This document shows, in pieces, positions 44,723 through 55,270 of a DNA stretch of 64,000 bases. A program made the translations under genes and the position numbers. Under the pieces are notes generated by a model that saw only the letters and a list, made by a program, of their open reading frames with translations, did no database searches and was not told the origin of the DNA. Source of the stretch: Persicirhabdus sediminis. GTDB lineage: Bacteria > Verrucomicrobiota > Verrucomicrobiia > Verrucomicrobiales > Akkermansiaceae. The DNA lies in contig NZ_JAENIM010000039.1 in NCBI RefSeq assembly GCF_016595495.1, forward strand, positions 124,001 through 188,000. Reading direction: 5' to 3'. Within the stretch, counting starts at the first letter, position 1, and every line of letters begins with the position of its first letter.

Positions 44723-44760
44723 AGGCGCATCGATTGCAAGTCGATGCGCCTTTTATTTTC
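44723..44760 (+). terminator. Hairpin terminator between gcvH and gcvP
   Basis: AGGCGCATCGA (44723-44733) pairs with TCGATGCGCCT (44741-44751), 11-bp perfect stem, loop TTGCAAG, followed by TTTATTTT. It would limit readthrough into gcvP. Confidence 0.8.
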
Positions 44761-44824
44761 CTTGCTTGCTAGGGAAAACTGGGGGATTGCAATATCTCAT
44801 TTCTCAGCCACATTACTTCCTTCT

Positions 44825-47659
44825 ATGTCAGTTCACGCTAATTTTCTCAGCCGTCACGTAGGGTCCGTCGGCGATACTCGTCAATCCATGATTCAGTCGC
44901 TCGGATACGAGCGCATTGTTGATCTAATCGATGACGCAGTGCCATCCAACATCATGGGCATGGATGATCTCCAACTGCCTGATCCATTGACACAGGCGAA
45001 AGCGCTCGAGCAGTTGCGCGGCGTACTTTCGCAAAACAAAGTTCTCCATTCATACATTGGCCAAGGCTACAGCGGAACATTGGTGCCGCCAGTCATTCAG
45101 CGTAATATTTTTGAAAATCCAGGTTGGTACACTGCATACACGCCGTACCAGCCAGAGGTCTCACAGGGTCGTCTTGAGGCATTGTTAAATTTCCAGACCA
45201 TGATCAGCGATCTCAGTGGGCTGGACATTGCTAACGCATCACTGCTAGATGAGGCGACTGCTTGTGCTGAGGCTATGGCATTGGCAAAAACTACCAAACC
45301 ACGTGGGTCTGTTATTTTTGTTGATAGCAACTGTCATCCACAAAACATTGAAGTGGTTGAGACCCGCGCCGAGCCGCTCGGCATTGAGGTGCTGATAGGT
45401 GACTGGAAATCATTTGACCCAGCTAACTGTGAGGGACTTTTTGCCGCGCTGCTGCAGTACCCAAATACACAAGGGGCAGTTGAAGATTATGCCGATTTTT
45501 GTGATCGTGTTCACGCGCAAAAGGCGCAAGTGATCGTAGCTGCAGATATTCTCGCTCTCACCGTACTGCGTGCTCCGGGTGAGTTTGGCGCTGACATCTG
45601 CGTCGGTAACTCACAACGATTTGGTGTGCCGCTCGGTTTTGGTGGCCCTCACGCTGGTTTTATGGCTTGTTCTGATAAACTCAAGCGTAAGATGCCAGGG
45701 AGAATTGTTGGAGTCTCTATCGATGCCCATGGCAAACCAGCCTATCGCCTAGCCATGCAGACTCGTGAGCAACACATCCGCCGCGATAAAGCGACCTCTA
45801 ATATCTGTACAGCACAGGTACTTCTCGCCGTGATGGCGTCGATGTATGCCGTGTGGCATGGGCCTGAAGGACTCAAGCGCATTGCTAACAATGTTAATTT
45901 TGCAGCGCGAATTATTTCTACTAGTTTGCAGAAAAATGGTTTCAAAGTCGTTCATGCTGAGTTCTTTGACTCAGTCATGGTTGAGGTTCCAGGGAAAGCA
46001 GCTGAGATTCTATCAGCTGGTGTGGAGCAAGGTGTGAACCTTCGCCAGCTAGATGAAAATCATATCATCATAGCTGCTGATGAAACCATGAGCTGTGAGC
46101 AGGGCATGCAGGTCTTGCGTGCATTTGGCATCGAAGATGCCGAGATTCCAGAGTTTGCTGATGTCACCTGGTCAGATGTTCACGCGCGTCAGTCCGACGT
46201 GCTGCAACAAGAAGTCTTCAACCGTTACCATTCTGAAACTGAGATGATGCGTTATATCGCTCGTCTTGAGAAACGCGACCTCGCGCTGAATGAAACCATG
46301 ATCCCGCTAGGTTCATGCACCATGAAACTCAATGCTGCTGCCGAAATGATGCCGCTGGCGTGGCCTGAGGTGGCTAACCTGCATCCATTTGTGCCAGCTG
46401 ATCAATCTATCGGATACCGGCAGATGCTTGACCAGTTAGCTGACTGGCTGGCTGAAGTGACTGGTTTTGCGGCTGTCTCGCTACAGCCAAATGCTGGTTC
46501 ACAAGGTGAGTACGCTGGTTTGTTAGCGATTCGTAATTACCATCTATCCAATGACGATACTGATCGTGATGTTTGCCTGATCCCAACATCAGCTCACGGA
46601 ACGAACCCAGCGAGCGCCGTAATGTGCGGTTTCAAGGTGGTTCCTGTTGCCTGTGATGATCAGGGCAATATCGATGTGGCCGATCTTACAGAAAAGTGTG
46701 AAAAGCATTCAGCTAAGTTAGGTGCGCTGATGGTAACTTATCCATCTACCCATGGTGTGTATGAATCTACCATCGTTGATATCTGTAAGCTGATTCACGA
46801 CCACGGCGGTCAGGTCTATATGGATGGCGCTAACATGAATGCTCAGGTTGGCCTAACCAGCCCTGGCTTCATCGGCGCTGACGTCTGTCACCTCAACCTT
46901 CACAAAACCTTTGCTATCCCACACGGTGGTGGTGGCCCAGGTGTAGGTCCAATTGGCGTAGCTAAGCAGTTAGTTCCATTCTTGCCAGGTCACGCTGAGC
47001 TGGAAAACCAAGAGCTGGCGGTTTGTTCTGCACCATACGGCAGTGCGAGTGTGAATGTGATCTCATGGATGTACATCGCGATGTTAGGTGCTGAGGGACT
47101 TACTGAAGCTACTAAAATGGCGATCCTTAATGCCAACTACGTTGCCGCTAGACTGAAGGAATTCTATCCAATTCTCTACACCGGTAACAAAGGTCTGGTC
47201 GCTCACGAATGTATCATCGACCTGCGTCCGCTCACCGCTGAGAGTGGCATCACTGTGGAAGATGTAGCCAAGCGTCTAATGGATTACGGATACCACGCGC
47301 CTACTATGAGCTGGCCGGTAGCTGGAACCTTGATGATCGAGCCAACGGAATCTGAAAGCAAAGCTGAGTTAGATCGTTTCTGTGATGCTCTGATCTCTAT
47401 CCATGCTGAAATCCAAGAGGTCGTTTCTGGTGCAGCTGACGAGACGAACAACGTTCTCAAAGGTGCGCCACACACTGCCGAGCAGGTGATCTCTGATAGC
47501 TGGGATCGCCCATACGGACGTGAAAAAGCTGCCTATCCATCAGAAATCCAGCGCCAGCACAAGTTCTGGCCAGCAGTCGGACGCATCGATAACGTCTACG
47601 GTGACCGCAACCTAGTCTGTTCATGTGTCGGCATGGAAGCATTTGCCGAATCTGAGTAA
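44825..47659 (+). CDS. gcvP: Glycine dehydrogenase (decarboxylating), P-protein
   Basis: PLP enzyme that decarboxylates glycine and loads the H-protein. 944 residues, single-chain form with N- and C-terminal halves. I chose ATG 44825 ([13 protein letters not shown]); a start at 44744 would lie inside the terminator. Marks: [64 protein letters not shown], and the PLP lysine in [18 protein letters not shown] (Lys694). The last 20 bases of coding sequence are duplicated 0.8 kb downstream. Confidence 0.96.
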
Positions 47660-47682
47660 TCTATCAAGTTGCTAGAATTTCC

Positions 47683-47718
47683 AGCTGGGCCAGCGTCATC
47701 GCTGGCCCAGCTTTTTTA
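47683..47718 (+). terminator. Terminator of gcvP (copy 1 of repeated block)
   Basis: AGCTGGGCCAGC (47683-47694) and GCTGGCCCAGCT (47701-47712), perfect 12-bp stem, loop GTCATC, then six T. Confidence 0.9.
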
Positions 47719-47805
47719 TGCTGAATAGACGATAGAAGTGTCTAATCATTGATTTGTTAGGTTGGGTCTTGTTATCCATTGTTGGGTGCGTTATTGAATT
47801 GACCA

Positions 47806-48462
47806 ATGAAATCATCAAACTTGTTTGTGAAGCGGCTGAAATCTGTGGTTCTATCAGTCACTGTAGCTAGCCCCATGTTGGCCCTGGCTGAGGCGCCAAA
47901 GCTGAAAACTTGGCAGGGGAATCCAGCTTCTCTGGCTAGCGTAGGCGGCATATTAAACATTCAAGAGCTCGGCGGTAAATTCACCACGGATAAGCCGTAC
48001 TCGAGTGTAACTCTACGAGCAGCATTTTTCAAAAATGGTGAGTTAGATAAGCAGAGCTCAATCGCCTGTGGAGTTAGGAGCAAGCAGAACCGTTTTGATT
48101 TTGGTGAAGTGGCTGTGAAAATTGCGGATTTAGACATCCTGCAGTTGCGCGGTGCTCCCGAAAATTCAATGAGATTCCATTACGCGGTGCAGATGGGAGA
48201 CGAGGGCGTAGCGAGCGGGCTGAAAGATTTTCCCAAATCGGTATTCGATTGTTCTAAGGGGCTCAGTACCAGCCAGCAGCTTGATGGGAACCAACAATTT
48301 GAGAACATCATTTTTCACCTGACGGTATCAGATTCCGATACTTTAATTGAGTCTAGCAGTTTAGACGATCACTTGAAGTCTAATCCACAGTCTGAGCTTG
48401 TGATTTTCTATCTGACTTTCAAAGAATATTTTGTGATGCCTAGAGGCATTTGCCGAATCTGA
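47806..48462 (+). CDS. Secreted paralogue A of the tandem family, altered C-terminus
   Basis: 218 residues, unknown function. Signal peptide about 1-29 (ends ALAEA-like), nearly identical to copies B and C at DNA level over the first ~40 bases of coding. The mature part is about 40% like B and C by eye, sharing KLKTW, FFKNG, SMRFH, PKSVFDC and LKSNP-S. Where B and C stop after YLTFEE, A continues YLTFKEYFVMPRGICRI because its stop site changed and it runs into a duplicate of the gcvP 3' end read in another frame. It may be a functional variant or a damaged one. Confidence 0.8.
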   Translation: MKSSNLFVKRLKSVVLSVTVASPMLALAEAPKLKTWQGNPASLASVGGILNIQELGGKFTTDKPYSSVTLRAAFFKNGELDKQSSIACGVRSKQNRFDFGEVAVKIADLDILQLRGAPENSMRFHYAVQMGDEGVASGLKDFPKSVFDCSKGLSTSQQLDGNQQFENIIFHLTVSDSDTLIESSSLDDHLKSNPQSELVIFYLTFKEYFVMPRGICRI

Positions 48463-48489
48463 GTAACCTATCAAGTTGCTAGAATTTTT

Positions 48490-48526
48490 AGCTGGGTCAG
48501 CGTCATTGCTGGCCCAGCTTTTTTTA
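48490..48526 (+). terminator. Terminator of paralogue A (copy 2 of repeated block)
   Basis: AGCTGGGTCAGC (48490-48501) and GCTGGCCCAGCT (48508-48519), one G-T pair, loop GTCATT, followed by seven T. Confidence 0.88.
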
Positions 48527-48613
48527 TGCCAGCTAGGTAAATGATTGTTTTGATTATCTGTCTGGCAGATTGCCTCTTGTTGTTCGGTTTTGGGCGCGTT
48601 ATTTAATTATCTG

Positions 48614-49249
48614 ATGAAATCATCAAACTTGTTTGTGAAGCGGCTGAAATCTGTAGTTCTATCAGCCATTGTGGCTAGCCCGATGTTGGTCTTAGCGGAA
48701 GCTCCTAAGCTAAAGACGTGGAAGAAGAATGATGTCGCCTTAGGTAGCTTGGCGACGGCATTGAAGATTCGTGATTACTCGGGGACTTTCACCTCTGATT
48801 CAGAATTCAGTAGCGTTAGGCTAAATGTAGCCTTTTTCAAGAATGGGGTGCTAGAAAAAAAACGCATGATCGGCTCAGCTGTATCGGCTAGTAGCAAAAA
48901 GTCTACCGAAGGCGAAATCGCAGTTCAGATCGTCGATTTGGACTATCTCAATATTAAAGATGCGCCATCGGACTCGATGAGGTTTCATATCAATTTGAGC
49001 TCTCTCGGTATGGGGAGTTCTGGGCAAGAAGATATTCCGAAGTCGGTATTCGACTGTACGAAATCTCTTAGCACCTCCAGTAGGCCTGACGACTCGTATT
49101 ATAAAGGCGTCGACGGCATCGGTAATATTTTGTTTTACCTCATGAGCTCCAAAACAGGTGCATCAAAAGGGGCTAATAATTTGGAGGAATTACTTAAATC
49201 AAATCCGCATTCTGACATCGCGGTTGTTTATCTGACTTTTGAAGAATAA
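48614..49249 (+). CDS. Secreted paralogue B of the tandem family
   Basis: 211 residues from ATG 48614. Signal peptide as in A and C (MKSSNLFVKRLKSVVLS...). Mature part about 85-90% identical to C by eye; a single Cys in SVFDCTKSL. No recognised fold; beta-rich and Ser/Lys-rich with IRDYSGTFTSDSEFSSV and GEIAVQIVDLDYLNI. The upstream 80 bases and the downstream terminator are near-identical to those of C, as expected for a recent tandem copy. Confidence 0.82.
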   Translation: MKSSNLFVKRLKSVVLSAIVASPMLVLAEAPKLKTWKKNDVALGSLATALKIRDYSGTFTSDSEFSSVRLNVAFFKNGVLEKKRMIGSAVSASSKKSTEGEIAVQIVDLDYLNIKDAPSDSMRFHINLSSLGMGSSGQEDIPKSVFDCTKSLSTSSRPDDSYYKGVDGIGNILFYLMSSKTGASKGANNLEELLKSNPHSDIAVVYLTFEE

Positions 49250-49302
49250 CACTGTGCTAGATCTAGTTAGATAGAGGTGTCTATCAAAGTGCTAGAATTT
49301 TC

Positions 49303-49340
49303 AGCTGGGTCAGCGTCATTGCTGGCCCAGCTTTTTTTAT
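49303..49340 (+). terminator. Terminator of paralogue B (copy 3 of repeated block)
   Basis: AGCTGGGTCAGC (49303-49314) and GCTGGCCCAGCT (49321-49332), loop GTCATT, then seven T. Confidence 0.88.
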
Positions 49341-49426
49341 GCCAGCTAGGTAAATGATTGTTTTGATTATCTGTCTGGCAGATTACCTCTTGTTGTCCTG
49401 TTTTGGGCGCGTTATTTAATTATCTA

Positions 49427-50059
49427 ATGAAATCATCAAACTTGTTTGTGAAGCGGCTAAAATCTGTGGTTCTATCAGTTATTGTAGCTAGCCCGGTGTT
49501 GGCCTTAGCGGAAGCTCCTAAGCTAAAGACATGGAAGAAGAATGATGTCGCCTTTGGTAGCTTGGCGACGGCATTGAAGATTCGTGATTACTCGGGGACT
49601 TTCACTTCTGATTCAGAATTCAGTAGCGTTAGTCTGAATGTGGCCTTTTTCAAGAATGGAGTGCTAGCAAAAAACCGCACGATCGGCTCAGCTGTTTCGG
49701 ATAGAAGCCAAAAGTCTAGCGAAGGCGAAATCGCAGTTCAGATCGTCGATTTGGACTATCTCAATATTAAAGAATCGCCATCGGACACGATGAGGTTTCA
49801 TATCAGCTTGAGCTCTCTCGGTATGTGGGCTTCAGGGCAAAGAGATATTCCGAAGTCGGTATTCGACTGTACGGAATCTCTTTGCTCATCCGGCAGGCCT
49901 GACGGCTCGTATAAAGGCGTCGACGGCATCGGTAATATTTTGTTTTACCTCATGAGCTCCAAAACAGACTCATCAAAAGGGGCTAATAATTTGGAGGAAT
50001 TACTTAAATTAAATCCGCATTCTGACATCGCGGTTGTTTATCTGACTTTTGAAGAGTAA
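49427..50059 (+). CDS. Secreted paralogue C of the tandem family
   Basis: 210 residues from ATG 49427. Same signal peptide and beta-rich mature region as B; most differences are clustered around 150-165, including loss of one residue (RPDGSYKG here, RPDDSYYKG in B) and an extra Cys (ESLCSSG). Ends YLTFEE like B. Followed by the most diverged copy of the terminator block. Confidence 0.82.
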   Translation: MKSSNLFVKRLKSVVLSVIVASPVLALAEAPKLKTWKKNDVAFGSLATALKIRDYSGTFTSDSEFSSVSLNVAFFKNGVLAKNRTIGSAVSDRSQKSSEGEIAVQIVDLDYLNIKESPSDTMRFHISLSSLGMWASGQRDIPKSVFDCTESLCSSGRPDGSYKGVDGIGNILFYLMSSKTDSSKGANNLEELLKLNPHSDIAVVYLTFEE

Positions 50060-50112
50060 TACTGTGCTAGACCTAGTTAGATAGAGGTGTCTATCAAAGT
50101 GCTAGAATCTTC

Positions 50113-50147
50113 AGCTGGGACGGTGTCATCGCTGCCCAGCTTTTTTG
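50113..50147 (+). terminator. Terminator of paralogue C (copy 4, diverged)
   Basis: AGCTGGG (50113-50119) pairs with CCCAGCT (50135-50141) and is followed by TTTTTTG. The inner stem has mismatches compared with the other three copies. Confidence 0.75.
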
Positions 50148-50271
50148 TGTTTAGATTTGTTTGTTAGATGGGGGGTGAGGTTTGAATTTACGCACTGAAA
50201 TATATTTAATCACTTGTGTGTTTAAGTCTATCAAGGATTGTGTTATTAGTGTTTCAAACGAATTGATAGTC

Positions 50272-53094
50272 ATGCGATTTTATAGAAATATTCTCCAGTT
50301 ATTTACCGCAATCATCAGTCTGCATCTGTTATTTAGCTCACTGTGTCTAGCTGAAGTGAGTCAGCCTGATAGTTATGTGATAGTAGAGGTGATTCTCCCT
50401 AATGGCGATCCTGCCGTTGGGCTAAATTTTCATAGTCAGATTTGGTTACCTGATTCTGACAGGTCCTTATTTGTTGAGGGGGTAACAGATGAAGAGGGTT
50501 GTTTCAGTATCCCTGAAGAAGGCGATTGGTATTTGAATGACTTTTATGGTGTTTTCACTTGGATTCATACAAAGGAGCTGGGGTATAATTTTTATACCTA
50601 TCTTGCTGATCATCAGCCTGCAGTAAAGAAGGTGATTTTCCAGCTAAGAAAGAACGAATCCAAGTTGATGTTTCAATTATCAAAACCTGATGGATCGCCA
50701 GCTGAAGATGTCGAAATTATGCTGAATAAAGCCATAGATTTCGAGTGCTCGATAGGTGCGCGCCTGTTCAAGTTTTCTCAGGGATCAGGTGTTTGGAACG
50801 CAAAATCAGATGAGCAGGGGCTGGTCGTATTCGAAGGTTTACCTACAGCTAGATACGAGGTAAATCATAGTTCTAAAGATTATGCTGCCATCCCTTCGAT
50901 AGTAGATCGCAATTATGGTTATCAAACTGGTGATGTGCATTCATTGGATTTGATCCAATCTTCCGAGATATCTGGTCGATTGATAGGCCTTGAAGGTAAG
51001 GGGATTGTCGGTCAGAAAGTCTACGCATTAGGTCTTAAAATTCCGGGGCTAGACGCCGAAGCTGCTACTACTTTAACTGATAAAAATGGTTATTACTCAT
51101 TGCACAATTTGAGAGCTCAAGATTACGAAGTTGGTGTTATACTAGATCGGACACAGGCTTTATCATCAGCTGCTCCATTGTCTGTAGTGAAAGATTTGAA
51201 GCTGGGTGAAAAGAGAGCTGAACATGATATCCAGCTTGTTCGCGGCGTTACTGTTTCATGTAAGCTCATTGATAGAGAAAATAATTCAGAGCTTGATCTG
51301 AATTGTTATTCTATAGGAGTTTCTGCCAGCAAAACCAAATCATATTTGGATAGTTACAAGCTATACAAGAACGGTGATTTGTATACGGCTCAATTGCCCG
51401 CAGGTGACTACTCGTTTCGAATTATAGGGAGGCTTAAGGGGTATAATAGGGCGACTCTAACTAATATGGATGCTGTTTTGCGTGAGGGAGTTGCTGAAGA
51501 GCTGGTTTTTGAGATATCTCCAGTTGAGGTCGATGAATCTAGGATGGTTAGAGGTGCGGTGCTTGATGAGGAAGGGCAGTCTGTAGAAGGTGTTGGAGTT
51601 TATCAATTTGTCCATGGCAGGTCAATTGAGTCAGCTAAAGCAACGACAGGTGCAAAGGGGGAATTTGCCATGGATTTGGTTTCAGGTGATAAGGGTAAAC
51701 TTGCCGTTTTCGCGAGCGATGGTAAATCACTGTCGGCTCTGCTAGATCTATCTGAAGGCGGAGCGTCAGTGATTAAATTCGAGCCAAAGCAGCTGATTCC
51801 GGTGAATGGGCGTATTGTAGATTCATTAGGCCTTCCTATTCAGAATTTGGGGCTGCGATATGCTCCCTATTCTTATGATCTAAATTTAAGAGAATTAGAT
51901 ACAATCTTTACGACTGTTACGGATGCAGATGGGCGTTTTGAATTTCCTCAGGTGTGGTCCGGGGTTCCGTTTATTATTGCGCCTGTAGCGAAGAGTTCTG
52001 TCTTTGTTAGGGGGGCGGTTGAGTTTGTAGTCAATGTTGGGGAGCCGAGTGATATTGGCTCTATCTCTTACTTGCGGAGAAATAAATCTATCGGAGGTAG
52101 AGTAGTGAATGCCGATGGTGAGCCAGTTGGGGCTGCTATTCTAGCTGGTTCTGAAAATCAACCATACGTGGATGCACTCACAGATGAAGATGGAAGCTTC
52201 TTATTAGAGGGACTGGTTTCAGGCGAGGCTGAGCTTAAAGTATATGAATATAAATACGGGTCAATGCGGCGGGTTCTCACTGAAACGCATCAGGCTGGGG
52301 CTCAAAACATAAATCTAGTTTATGATCTAGCTGAGCCTACGTTGAGTTTGTCAGGAAAGATCGTATCAGCTGACGGGGCGCCACTAGTTGGGGCAATTGT
52401 TGAGCCAGTTTGGGGACAGCCTGATGGGATAAGAGCGGTCACCGATGCGCAGGGCGATTTTGAGTTGCAGGGTTTGTTTCCTGATTGGTTCAGTATTCAG
52501 GTGCGGCCAGCAATCACGGGTAGTTGCCAACAAAAGTTTCGTGTTAAAGCTGGGAATCAAGGTGAGACGATCAGGATGGCCAGTGATGAGAGAGCTAAAA
52601 AAGTCGAAAATATGTGGGCAGAGTTCGACAGGCCGATCAATCTAGTTGGGCAAGAGTTAGTCGGTAGTGAAGCTCCAGCGATTGAAATCAGTCATTGGTA
52701 TAGTGACGCTAAGCTAGAAGCAAAGGTTGAGGGGAAGGTTAGAGTCATAAATTTCTGGGGCATTGGTTGTAGGCCTTGTATAAAAAATATTCCTAACTTA
52801 GAAAATTTTTGGCAGGACAATCAAGGTCGTGGGCTGGAGCTGTTGATGATTGAAGTGGGCTCGCCTCATGCCGAAGTTAAGGAGTTTTTCTCAAGAAAAT
52901 TGTACATGCCGGCGATGCCAATGGCTGGGATGGAAGATGGTGACATAGCGATCCTGAATTACATAGCCTATGGAAGGCCAACCTATGTGGTGGTTGATGA
53001 GAATAACATTATACAACATTGGAGTATAGGGGATTGGGCTAAAGCTGAGGAAAAAGCGTTGCAGTTATTGGAGAATTTAGAGCGGGGGAATTAG
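50272..53094 (+). CDS. Secreted multidomain protein: carboxypeptidase-regulatory-like repeats plus C-terminal thioredoxin-like domain
   Basis: 940 residues from ATG 50272 (a frame open from 50182 lacks a signal at its start); signal peptide about 1-28. Then about six to eight beta-sandwich units of the CarboxypepD_reg/SpaA-like type, each showing a pattern such as GRVVNADGEPVGAAIL, DEDGSFLLEGL or GKIVSADGAPLVGAIVEP with DAQGDFELQGLF. The last ~140 residues form a TlpA/redoxin-like thioredoxin fold: VRVINFWGIGCRPCIKNIPN with the CRPC active site at Cys833 and Cys836, and GRPTYVVVDENN with the cis-Pro region. This suggests thiol-disulfide chemistry in the envelope. The AT-rich, AGA/AGG-using sequence differs from neighbouring core genes. 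Confidence 0.85.
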   Translation: MRFYRNILQLFTAIISLHLLFSSLCLAEVSQPDSYVIVEVILPNGDPAVGLNFHSQIWLPDSDRSLFVEGVTDEEGCFSIPEEGDWYLNDFYGVFTWIHTKELGYNFYTYLADHQPAVKKVIFQLRKNESKLMFQLSKPDGSPAEDVEIMLNKAIDFECSIGARLFKFSQGSGVWNAKSDEQGLVVFEGLPTARYEVNHSSKDYAAIPSIVDRNYGYQTGDVHSLDLIQSSEISGRLIGLEGKGIVGQKVYALGLKIPGLDAEAATTLTDKNGYYSLHNLRAQDYEVGVILDRTQALSSAAPLSVVKDLKLGEKRAEHDIQLVRGVTVSCKLIDRENNSELDLNCYSIGVSASKTKSYLDSYKLYKNGDLYTAQLPAGDYSFRIIGRLKGYNRATLTNMDAVLREGVAEELVFEISPVEVDESRMVRGAVLDEEGQSVEGVGVYQFVHGRSIESAKATTGAKGEFAMDLVSGDKGKLAVFASDGKSLSALLDLSEGGASVIKFEPKQLIPVNGRIVDSLGLPIQNLGLRYAPYSYDLNLRELDTIFTTVTDADGRFEFPQVWSGVPFIIAPVAKSSVFVRGAVEFVVNVGEPSDIGSISYLRRNKSIGGRVVNADGEPVGAAILAGSENQPYVDALTDEDGSFLLEGLVSGEAELKVYEYKYGSMRRVLTETHQAGAQNINLVYDLAEPTLSLSGKIVSADGAPLVGAIVEPVWGQPDGIRAVTDAQGDFELQGLFPDWFSIQVRPAITGSCQQKFRVKAGNQGETIRMASDERAKKVENMWAEFDRPINLVGQELVGSEAPAIEISHWYSDAKLEAKVEGKVRVINFWGIGCRPCIKNIPNLENFWQDNQGRGLELLMIEVGSPHAEVKEFFSRKLYMPAMPMAGMEDGDIAILNYIAYGRPTYVVVDENNIIQHWSIGDWAKAEEKALQLLENLERGN

Positions 53095-53140
53095 TTTACA
53101 TAGTGATTGCATCGGCGGGTGGTTTGTCTATCTGTTGGGA

Positions 53141-55270
53141 ATGTTGCGATTGCTAGAAATTTTCTGTTTATGGATTTTGATGATTTTGCAGCCGTGTTTG
53201 GCGGCTGGAAATGTAGCTGAGCGAGAGCTTGGCTACCGCTTGGTCGGTCTGGATGGAGAAGCTCTAGCAGGAGCCGATTGGTATCTGGATGTTGCTCATG
53301 CAGGAACAGGCAAGCTCAGCAGCCAGCGCGGAGTGAGCAATGCGGCAGGTGATGTGATCTTTAAGTTCTCGGAAGCCGAGCTAGTTGGCGGTGTGGATAT
53401 GACGCTAACAACGTCGCACGCCAAGTATGGCACACAGTTTTTCAATCTCTATGAGGATGGTTCGAATGAAGAGTTTGACCGTGAGTTGCGGCATCGGATT
53501 CATAATGATCGGCTAGAAGTTAGGTTTTTGAAGCCTGATGGTCAGCCAGCTAGTAGCTTGCGCATTAATGTATCAAAGTTGAATTCTTTTGGCGATTCGC
53601 CAGCCCCTGACTACCAGATTCAAAGAGATGATAGAAAAGTCGGGCTGCTGAGTGAGGTGACTAACGAAAATGGTGTGGTTGTATTTAAAAACATCCCACG
53701 TGGCCGCTACTACCTGAGCCACAACTCTGACGAATATGCAGTTCTGGCTGGACGACGCATTCCAAGCCTACGCCTACTGACAGGCAGCGATCACACTGTG
53801 CGCTTGATAGAACCGGCTAGCATTGTGGGTAAATTGCTAGACCGTGATGGAAATGGACGCGCAGGGGTGATGGTGCGTAGCTTGCACCGCAATAATAGCT
53901 ATTTTGTAGCGTCAGGCTCAGCTATCACTGATGGGCAGGGGATTTATGAGCTGAAGAAGTTGCGACCATTTAGCCACTATTTGTGGGTAGATGAGGGAAG
54001 TTCTTCACCTGCGGAGTGGAATTATAGTCCGGTGCAGATTGATTTGTTGGAAGCTGGTGAAACTCGCCTGCTCGCTGATATTGCTCCAGCTAGTTTGGTG
54101 AATTTTAGCGGCAGAGTGGTCAATTCTGTTAGCGGTGAAGTTATCGTTGATGTTCCTGTGCGCGTGCTGATAGAGAATAAGAAAGTGGGTGTTCGTGGAA
54201 ACTTGCTGGTGATGTCGCTAGATGCCAATGGTGAATTTTCCGCCTTATTGCCAGCTGGTGAATACAAAGTTAGCCTGCGTGGCCAGGTGACACGCGAGGA
54301 AAGAATCTCGCGGGTTGCATCGTTTCAGGGGGGCAATCTAGCTGGCTATGATCCAGCCGTCACTAATGGGCAGCATTTTTTGTTGGAGTTAGGTAAGCCG
54401 CAGCAGGTTGAGCTGAAGCTCAGGGAGCTCGATGATGATGACTATTTGCTAGGTGAGGTGATTGATGAACATGGTCAGCCGGTGGCAGGTGCTGAAGTTC
54501 ATTATCACGATGGTGGTTATCAGGTTCTCCCTGCTGACATTGCGCTTTCCGAGTTAGATGGGAGTTTTCGCCTGAAGTATCGCAAGTCGTTCAATGCTGG
54601 TGAAATTAAGCTATTTGCTTATGACGGGAAATATTGCTCTGATCTAATCATTGCTCAAGCAGGTAAGCCGGCTAGCTTAGTATTGAAACAAAGCGAGCCA
54701 GCTAGGCTTAGTGGCCGATTGGTAGATCCAGCTGGATCGCCATTGGTCAATGTTAGGATAACTTGTGATTATGGTCAGCTGGCGGGGATGATGAATAGCT
54801 CGCCACGATTCTATCAAGATGCTCAGGCTGGCATGACTGATAGTGACGGTCGATTTGAACTCATCAAGTGCTGGCCAGCGGAGAGGATGAGGATTCATCT
54901 AAAGTGCGACGGTTACGATAGTGATAGTATTGTATCGCCTGAGTTAGATGCTGGCGCAGATCACGATCTCGGTACGTGTATGTTAGTTCCTAGTGTAGGA
55001 GTCATTAGTGGGAGAGTATTAGATGTAAATGGTGACCCGCTGGCTCATGCGCTAGTTAGAGCGATGACCTACACTGAAGGAAGGGTGGTTGATGAATACC
55101 ACGCGCTTAGCAATGGAGATGGTTCATTTTTGCTAGAAAATATGTCAGGCGTGAAAGTCCAACTTAAGGTGAAAGATCCTTATCAACCGCGCCGCGCGGT
55201 AAGCACAGCGAGTGCATTAATGGGGGCTGAAAATGTGGTTTTGCGTTGTGATGGCAAAATTAAAAAGTAG
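53141..55270 (+). CDS. Secreted multidomain protein with carboxypeptidase-regulatory-like repeats
   Basis: 709 residues from ATG 53141. A signal peptide (about 1-21) is followed by beta-sandwich repeats like those of the upstream gene, e.g. GRVVNSVSGEVIVDVPVRV, GEVIDEHGQPVAGAEVHYH, GRLVDPAGSPLVNVRI with TDSDGRFELIK, and GRVLDVNGDPLAHALVRA with NGDGSFLLENM. The order and spacing resemble the upstream protein (both contain a YxxSHNS/NHSS-KDYA-like segment near 195), but it ends without a thioredoxin domain. Probable paralogue; 46 bases separate the two genes. Function unknown. Confidence 0.82.
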   Translation: MLRLLEIFCLWILMILQPCLAAGNVAERELGYRLVGLDGEALAGADWYLDVAHAGTGKLSSQRGVSNAAGDVIFKFSEAELVGGVDMTLTTSHAKYGTQFFNLYEDGSNEEFDRELRHRIHNDRLEVRFLKPDGQPASSLRINVSKLNSFGDSPAPDYQIQRDDRKVGLLSEVTNENGVVVFKNIPRGRYYLSHNSDEYAVLAGRRIPSLRLLTGSDHTVRLIEPASIVGKLLDRDGNGRAGVMVRSLHRNNSYFVASGSAITDGQGIYELKKLRPFSHYLWVDEGSSSPAEWNYSPVQIDLLEAGETRLLADIAPASLVNFSGRVVNSVSGEVIVDVPVRVLIENKKVGVRGNLLVMSLDANGEFSALLPAGEYKVSLRGQVTREERISRVASFQGGNLAGYDPAVTNGQHFLLELGKPQQVELKLRELDDDDYLLGEVIDEHGQPVAGAEVHYHDGGYQVLPADIALSELDGSFRLKYRKSFNAGEIKLFAYDGKYCSDLIIAQAGKPASLVLKQSEPARLSGRLVDPAGSPLVNVRITCDYGQLAGMMNSSPRFYQDAQAGMTDSDGRFELIKCWPAERMRIHLKCDGYDSDSIVSPELDAGADHDLGTCMLVPSVGVISGRVLDVNGDPLAHALVRAMTYTEGRVVDEYHALSNGDGSFLLENMSGVKVQLKVKDPYQPRRAVSTASALMGAENVVLRCDGKIKK

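Follow-up and report, generated by a model that had tools for sequence, protein, structure and literature searches.

An out-of-frame copy of the gcvP 3' end closes an orphan gene in the array behind gcvP of Persicirhabdus sediminis

Introduction

How does a gene come to end in the last bases of the gene upstream of it, read in a different frame? The question is raised by a 64,000-nt stretch of the Persicirhabdus sediminis genome (the whole stretch analysed, hereafter the window), in which gcvP, encoding glycine dehydrogenase (decarboxylating), lies at positions 44744 to 47659 of the forward strand (Pfam GDC-P, 1.5e-184; GcvP2_C, 2.4e-60). It is the source of the tail discussed below and is preceded by two genes that we take to be gcvT and gcvH. 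Downstream on the same strand are paralogue A (47806 to 48462, 218 aa), which has a signal-peptide-like N-terminus when read by eye, paralogue B (48614 to 49249, 211 aa), and paralogue C (49427 to 50059, 210 aa), the protein of which is 87% identical to B. A hairpin with a run of T follows each of the three. Together A, B, and C form a small, lineage-specific tandem array of orphan proteins behind gcvP, and secretion of these proteins is probable. Two large secreted-looking proteins are encoded downstream of C; in the first (50263 to 53094), several carboxypeptidase-regulatory-like domains are combined with a thioredoxin-like domain at the C-terminus, and the second (53135 to 55270) resembles it in style by eye. 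Among the named contigs, gcvP was closest to those of Haloferula (68% identity), an Akkermansiaceae MAG (67%), and Luteolibacter (64%). The family set comprised 145 genomes, with no second genome of the genus among those listed.

Results

The original prediction was that the gcvP 3' end occurs a second time at the end of A, at 47639 and 48446, and the repeat is real. Positions 47639 to 47717 align with 48446 to 48524 ungapped and with 5 mismatches in 79, and the other registers tried next to this alignment gave 55 to 61 mismatches. The 21-mer GCATTTGCCGAATCTGAGTAA is exact at both positions (chance expectation, 0.01), with no third match in the window at up to 3 mismatches. The last 24 nt of gcvP (47636 to 47659, forward strand) recur at 48443 to 48466 with 23 identical, a score compared with at most 17 in 5,000 shuffles. 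Chance similarity as the source of the repeat was ruled out by the mismatch, 21-mer, and shuffle results. The part shared specifically by gcvP and A is only about 45 nt long, 47636 to 47680 corresponding to 48443 to 48487 (43/45 identical). A decayed gcvP tail was sought at the ends of B and C, where the best score was 13/24, within the shuffle range. It is highly improbable that the second copy is an assembly artefact from a collapsed or misjoined repeat: the genome is in 47 contigs, but the copies differ at 6 positions over 47636 to 47712, where a simple misjoin should give identical copies, and the array is ordered and consistently spaced within a 775 kb contig.

The same bases encode AFAESE-stop in gcvP and, one base out of frame, GICRI-stop in A, as had been read previously, and the out-of-frame C-terminal tail on A was borne out, with B and C having no such tail (the protein ends compare as LTFKEYFVMPRGICRI-stop on the gcvP/A side and LTFEE-stop in B and C). 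A exceeds the B/C stop point by 11 residues, YFVMPR plus GICRI, of which the gcvP-like DNA supplies only the last five before running on untranslated. The first six extra codons (48427 to 48444, forward strand) are not gcvP-like save for the last two bases. The original prediction had A losing its own stop, and a TAA-to-TAT change is plausible from the sequences of B and C, but the bases between the B/C stop point and the tail have no significant similarity to the 3' regions of B or C (1,435 and 571, respectively, of 2,000 shuffles scored as well). It may be that the old stop of A was merely situated on the far side of the junction. Near 48443, where the two sequences meet, no homology is visible between the body of A and the gcvP end, and an overlap of one or two bases is possible; the two are joined here without homology, as expected at one end of a product of homology-facilitated illegitimate recombination.

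In the eight closest gcvP loci (L157 to L164) the protein ends in frame with C[IAVE]GME[AEQ][FY] followed by a few residues. Because these relatives hold the tail in frame, the gcvP reading is the older one and A is the recipient, which agrees with the direction proposed at the outset. A retains its conserved domain through LTF(K/E)E and has an intact hairpin behind it, and the effect of the tail on A is most likely small, that of an appended and possibly neutral end.

Each of the four intergenic blocks after gcvP, A, B, and C has the G+C-rich hairpin and T run that define an intrinsic (Rho-independent) terminator. All are on the forward strand. T0, after gcvP, spans 47660 to 47721 (hairpin at 47683 to 47712, 13 pairs, then the T run; z, -5.8). 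T1, after A, spans 48467 to 48529, and its site patterns are T0-like in the 5' part and like the block after B in the hairpin (48490 to 48519) and downstream. The block after B (49280 to 49342) is likewise a hybrid, C-block-like in its 5' part and T1-like in the hairpin (49303 to 49332) and downstream. T2, after C (50090 to 50150), has a weaker hairpin (z, -3.2), which was absent from the terminator scan that listed the hairpins after gcvP, A, and B. Genome-wide (57 candidates initially, 40 scored), four strong copies of the block were found, all of them in the array, and the next match was 21 nt long (E, 6e-4); a mobile or genome-wide repeated terminator was ruled out on this basis. Behind gcvP in relatives (109 loci, 107 with enough downstream DNA), no T0-type terminator scored above 23, compared with 74 for the gcvP and C blocks under the same scoring; 6 of the 107 slightly exceeded the best of 50 shuffles.

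Up to about 48476, informative sites in the tail and lead-in at the end of A side with gcvP against B, apart from scattered exceptions in places of doubtful alignment; starting at about 48488, almost every informative site sides with B against gcvP. The idea of a duplicated segment crossing the gene boundary held in that the gcvP stop region is present again at the end of A; it did not extend to the terminator, which is array-wide and, from the hairpin of A onward, B-like.

Two side observations concern short words of the block. The 18-nt lead-in CTATCAARKTGCTAGAAT had 37 approximate matches in the P. sediminis genome at up to 3 mismatches, compared with 8 for the reversed pattern; four of the 37 belong to the array itself, and the surroundings of the matches printed have no common hairpin and are in many cases coding-looking DNA. 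A non-coding-looking region of another contig (C46, about 27.4 to 29.2 kb) carries several near-identical repeats with GCTAGAATTTCCAGCTGGGC or a close variant of it (loci L038 and L037), which share just this short word with the gcvP array and are otherwise unrelated.

At the protein level A and B are 52% identical. Their DNA beyond codon 36 is identical at 54% of positions, and the synonymous difference there, 0.76, is saturated and beyond correction; between B and C the figure is about 0.12 synonymous changes per site. Had the tail diverged to the A/B level, the probability of 43/45 identical bases would be about 5e-10. With a tail this well preserved and synonymous sites saturated between A and B, the arrival of the tail and the separation of A from B must differ in age, so that the tail joined A long after A and B had parted or arrived with gcvP DNA from another lineage. 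By these sequence comparisons, the tail is young relative to the A/B divergence and was not left over from the ancient duplication that gave rise to the two genes. A reading suggested by the wording of the original prediction, by which a plain tandem duplication of gcvP tail, terminator, and gene made A and B at once, is contradicted by the same figures. Such a duplication would in a single event put a gcvP tail precisely where it is found, between the two genes, but A would equal B at its origin and the tail and gene bodies would be equally diverged, and no constraint on the tail in A is known that would keep it alone so similar; we regard this explanation as very unlikely.

The stretch from T0 to the leader of A matches the corresponding stretch before B at about 50% of positions, as a long separation would lead one to expect. 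Apart from tail and terminator, A and B have only one other long island of high identity, at 47782 to 47860 (forward strand), which takes in the leader, the start codon, and the first codons of A and is 80 to 100% identical to unit B in 30-nt steps, compared with about 50% just upstream and mostly 40 to 70% further into the gene. Codons for the same residue are identical in 15/16 cases within codons 1 to 17 and in 33/86 elsewhere (Fisher P, 4e-5). This start-of-gene identity suggests either a second exchange between units or constraint on the start. The leader and first 17 to 20 codons are nearly identical in all three genes (47782 to 47860, 48590 to 48668, and 49403 to 49481). The G+C contents of A, B, and C are 0.46, 0.44, and 0.44, with third-position values of 0.49 to 0.50 compared with 0.48 in gcvP.

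The spacing of B and C is 813 bp. The two units are alike from the T1 hairpin, over the whole 813 bp, as far as T2, and the repeat-bounded copies have a hybrid repeat between them, the block after B being C-like and then T1-like. Tandem duplication via crossing over between short direct repeats is a general class of event. Given the limits of the identity and the T2/T1 hybrid block, crossing over of T1 with T2 explains B and C; the B unit would have been doubled by crossing over between these short homologous blocks, later than the event that gave A its end. The 813-bp unit, bounded by blocks with a hybrid block between the copies, is like other duplications of the class and differs from them in that an intrinsic terminator served as the repeat. 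In the titles and abstract beginnings that were searched, nothing was found on terminators as duplication endpoints, and an absence from the literature is not claimed. The array suggests that repeated intrinsic terminators may supply the homology by which small gene arrays grow.

Discussion

The account that we favour, and to which we give about an even chance, is that the 3' end of A is a recombination junction formed by homology-facilitated illegitimate recombination and that B and C arose by the later crossing over between terminators. The recipient gcvP would then have stood directly before T1 and gene B. An incoming segment of gcvP, terminator, and A would have paired with the resident gcvP along the long gcvP part, and its far end would have been joined without homology, so that a divergent A became fused, immediately beyond its final conserved codons, to the last 24 bases of the resident gcvP. 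The product would be gcvP, T0, and A, behind which the resident gcvP end would be left stranded before T1 and B. In being joined, A would have parted with its original stop and terminator; it now ends at a TGA that is out of frame in gcvP and directly precedes an intact terminator. The junction, its source, the hybrid terminators, and the relative ages are seen in the sequence; the anchoring in gcvP, the arrival of A from elsewhere, and the succession of events are inferred from the arrangement.

This gcvP-anchored route is favoured because one event explains the missing end of A, the scrap of gcvP and T1 before B, and the divergence of A and B; the differing ages of the tail and of the A/B split also fit a long period in which A and B evolved apart. 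Several results count against it. A donor-like arrangement was not found, and a profile search gave no relative of A, B, or C, and with it no relative showing the ancestral end of A, in any of the 385 other genomes of the order. The composition gives no mark of A as foreign. The near-identical first 17 codons require a separate exchange or strong constraint, and T2 resembles T0, so an earlier duplication of the terminator is required too.

The main rival, which we hold to be possible though doubtful, is a patch copied within the genome, for which the resident gcvP would be the template and the terminator block the anchor. A would already have been beside B with its own terminator block, and repair synthesis or template switching would have paired that block with the gcvP block and copied leftward through the gcvP stop, taking in the last 24 gcvP bases before the 3' region of A was rejoined by end joining or microhomology. 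A two-step variant, in which gcvP tail, T0, and A were duplicated and the extra A was lost by crossing over between terminators, gives an identical product. The mosaic look of T1, T0-like at sites to about 48476 and B-like from about 48488, agrees with such a patch, as do the recombined terminator blocks elsewhere in the array and the island at the start of A, which suggests a second exchange between units. Copying of this kind nevertheless needs one homology-free end, just as the favoured account does, and its anchor would be only a short block of homology; moreover, the T0-like signal within the block amounts to two sites (47668 to 47669), the remainder lying in or beside the gcvP tail. The literature found on the subject was general work on gene conversion and microhomology.

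Under the gcvP-anchored route, the end of A is a scar of a known kind, ordinary in mechanism, and the locus is instructive. The scar can be dated relative to its neighbours, and in it a protein has gained a C-terminus from out-of-frame neighbouring DNA while a transcription stop was kept. Homology-facilitated illegitimate recombination is reported to occur at low efficiency in Escherichia coli conjugation (PMC3240628), and a process akin to it was proposed for immunity arrays of Vibrio cholerae, in which an effector gene is displaced and its 3' end comes to lie further back in the array (PMC5361080). As in those accounts, one side here would be homologous, the other is joined without homology, and a gene end is displaced downstream; the known cases are experimental or drawn from many strains, whereas this one is a single genome with an inferred anchor (PMC3240628, PMC5361080). 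The likeness to the V. cholerae T6SS orphan immunity arrays extends to related or divergent genes behind a conserved gene and to the shifted-back 3' end of an upstream gene (PMC5361080), but neither an effector nor a secretion cluster was noticed next to the gcvP array, and its upstream gene is metabolic. The neighbours are gcvT, gcvH, and gcvP upstream and the large secreted-looking proteins downstream, the Pfam scan covering gcvP and the 970-aa protein.

A broader and rather unlikely proposal is that the gcvP end and its terminator are a landing place that captures divergent members of the orphan family serially, each capture stranding a scrap of gcvP, while the terminator, as the recombination repeat, multiplies and shuffles the units. 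If that were true, the array would parallel the T6SS immunity arrays, with a housekeeping gene at its head, and if strains of the lineage differ here, serial capture behind a housekeeping gene is directly testable.

A, B, and C all start with a signal-peptide-like stretch, as read by eye, and are probably exported; they matched no family in Pfam or NCBIfam. The phylum profile search found a match in 1 of 386 other genomes (E, 5e-4) with three stops inside it, and the one ORF of at least 80 aa in that stretch is outside the match. The search of the 145 family genomes gave 28 genomes at E up to 1, P. sediminis included, the best match outside it (E, 0.001) again having stops inside, and the ORF list at locus L005 held no A, B, or C homologue recognizable by eye. 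No relatives were found in genome contigs, viral contigs, plasmids, or phages, and solved structures gave nothing better than E 0.5 by sequence. The predicted structure is poor (mean pLDDT, 37) and gives a hint of mostly strands, the last of which would end where the extension of A begins. In eight fetched relatives, the DNA behind gcvP had no match to A, B, C, or the next seven proteins of the window at E 1e-3; at one of these loci, L192, the downstream DNA amounted to about 1.1 kb, and ORFs were listed for the other seven. Behind gcvP of one relative (genome G031; L189, 256 to 4624, minus strand) there are five tandem secreted-looking genes of about 230 to 270 aa, most of them with an LDDV..R..D.NRDG.GD-like motif near the N-terminus, and the family differs from that of A, B, and C.
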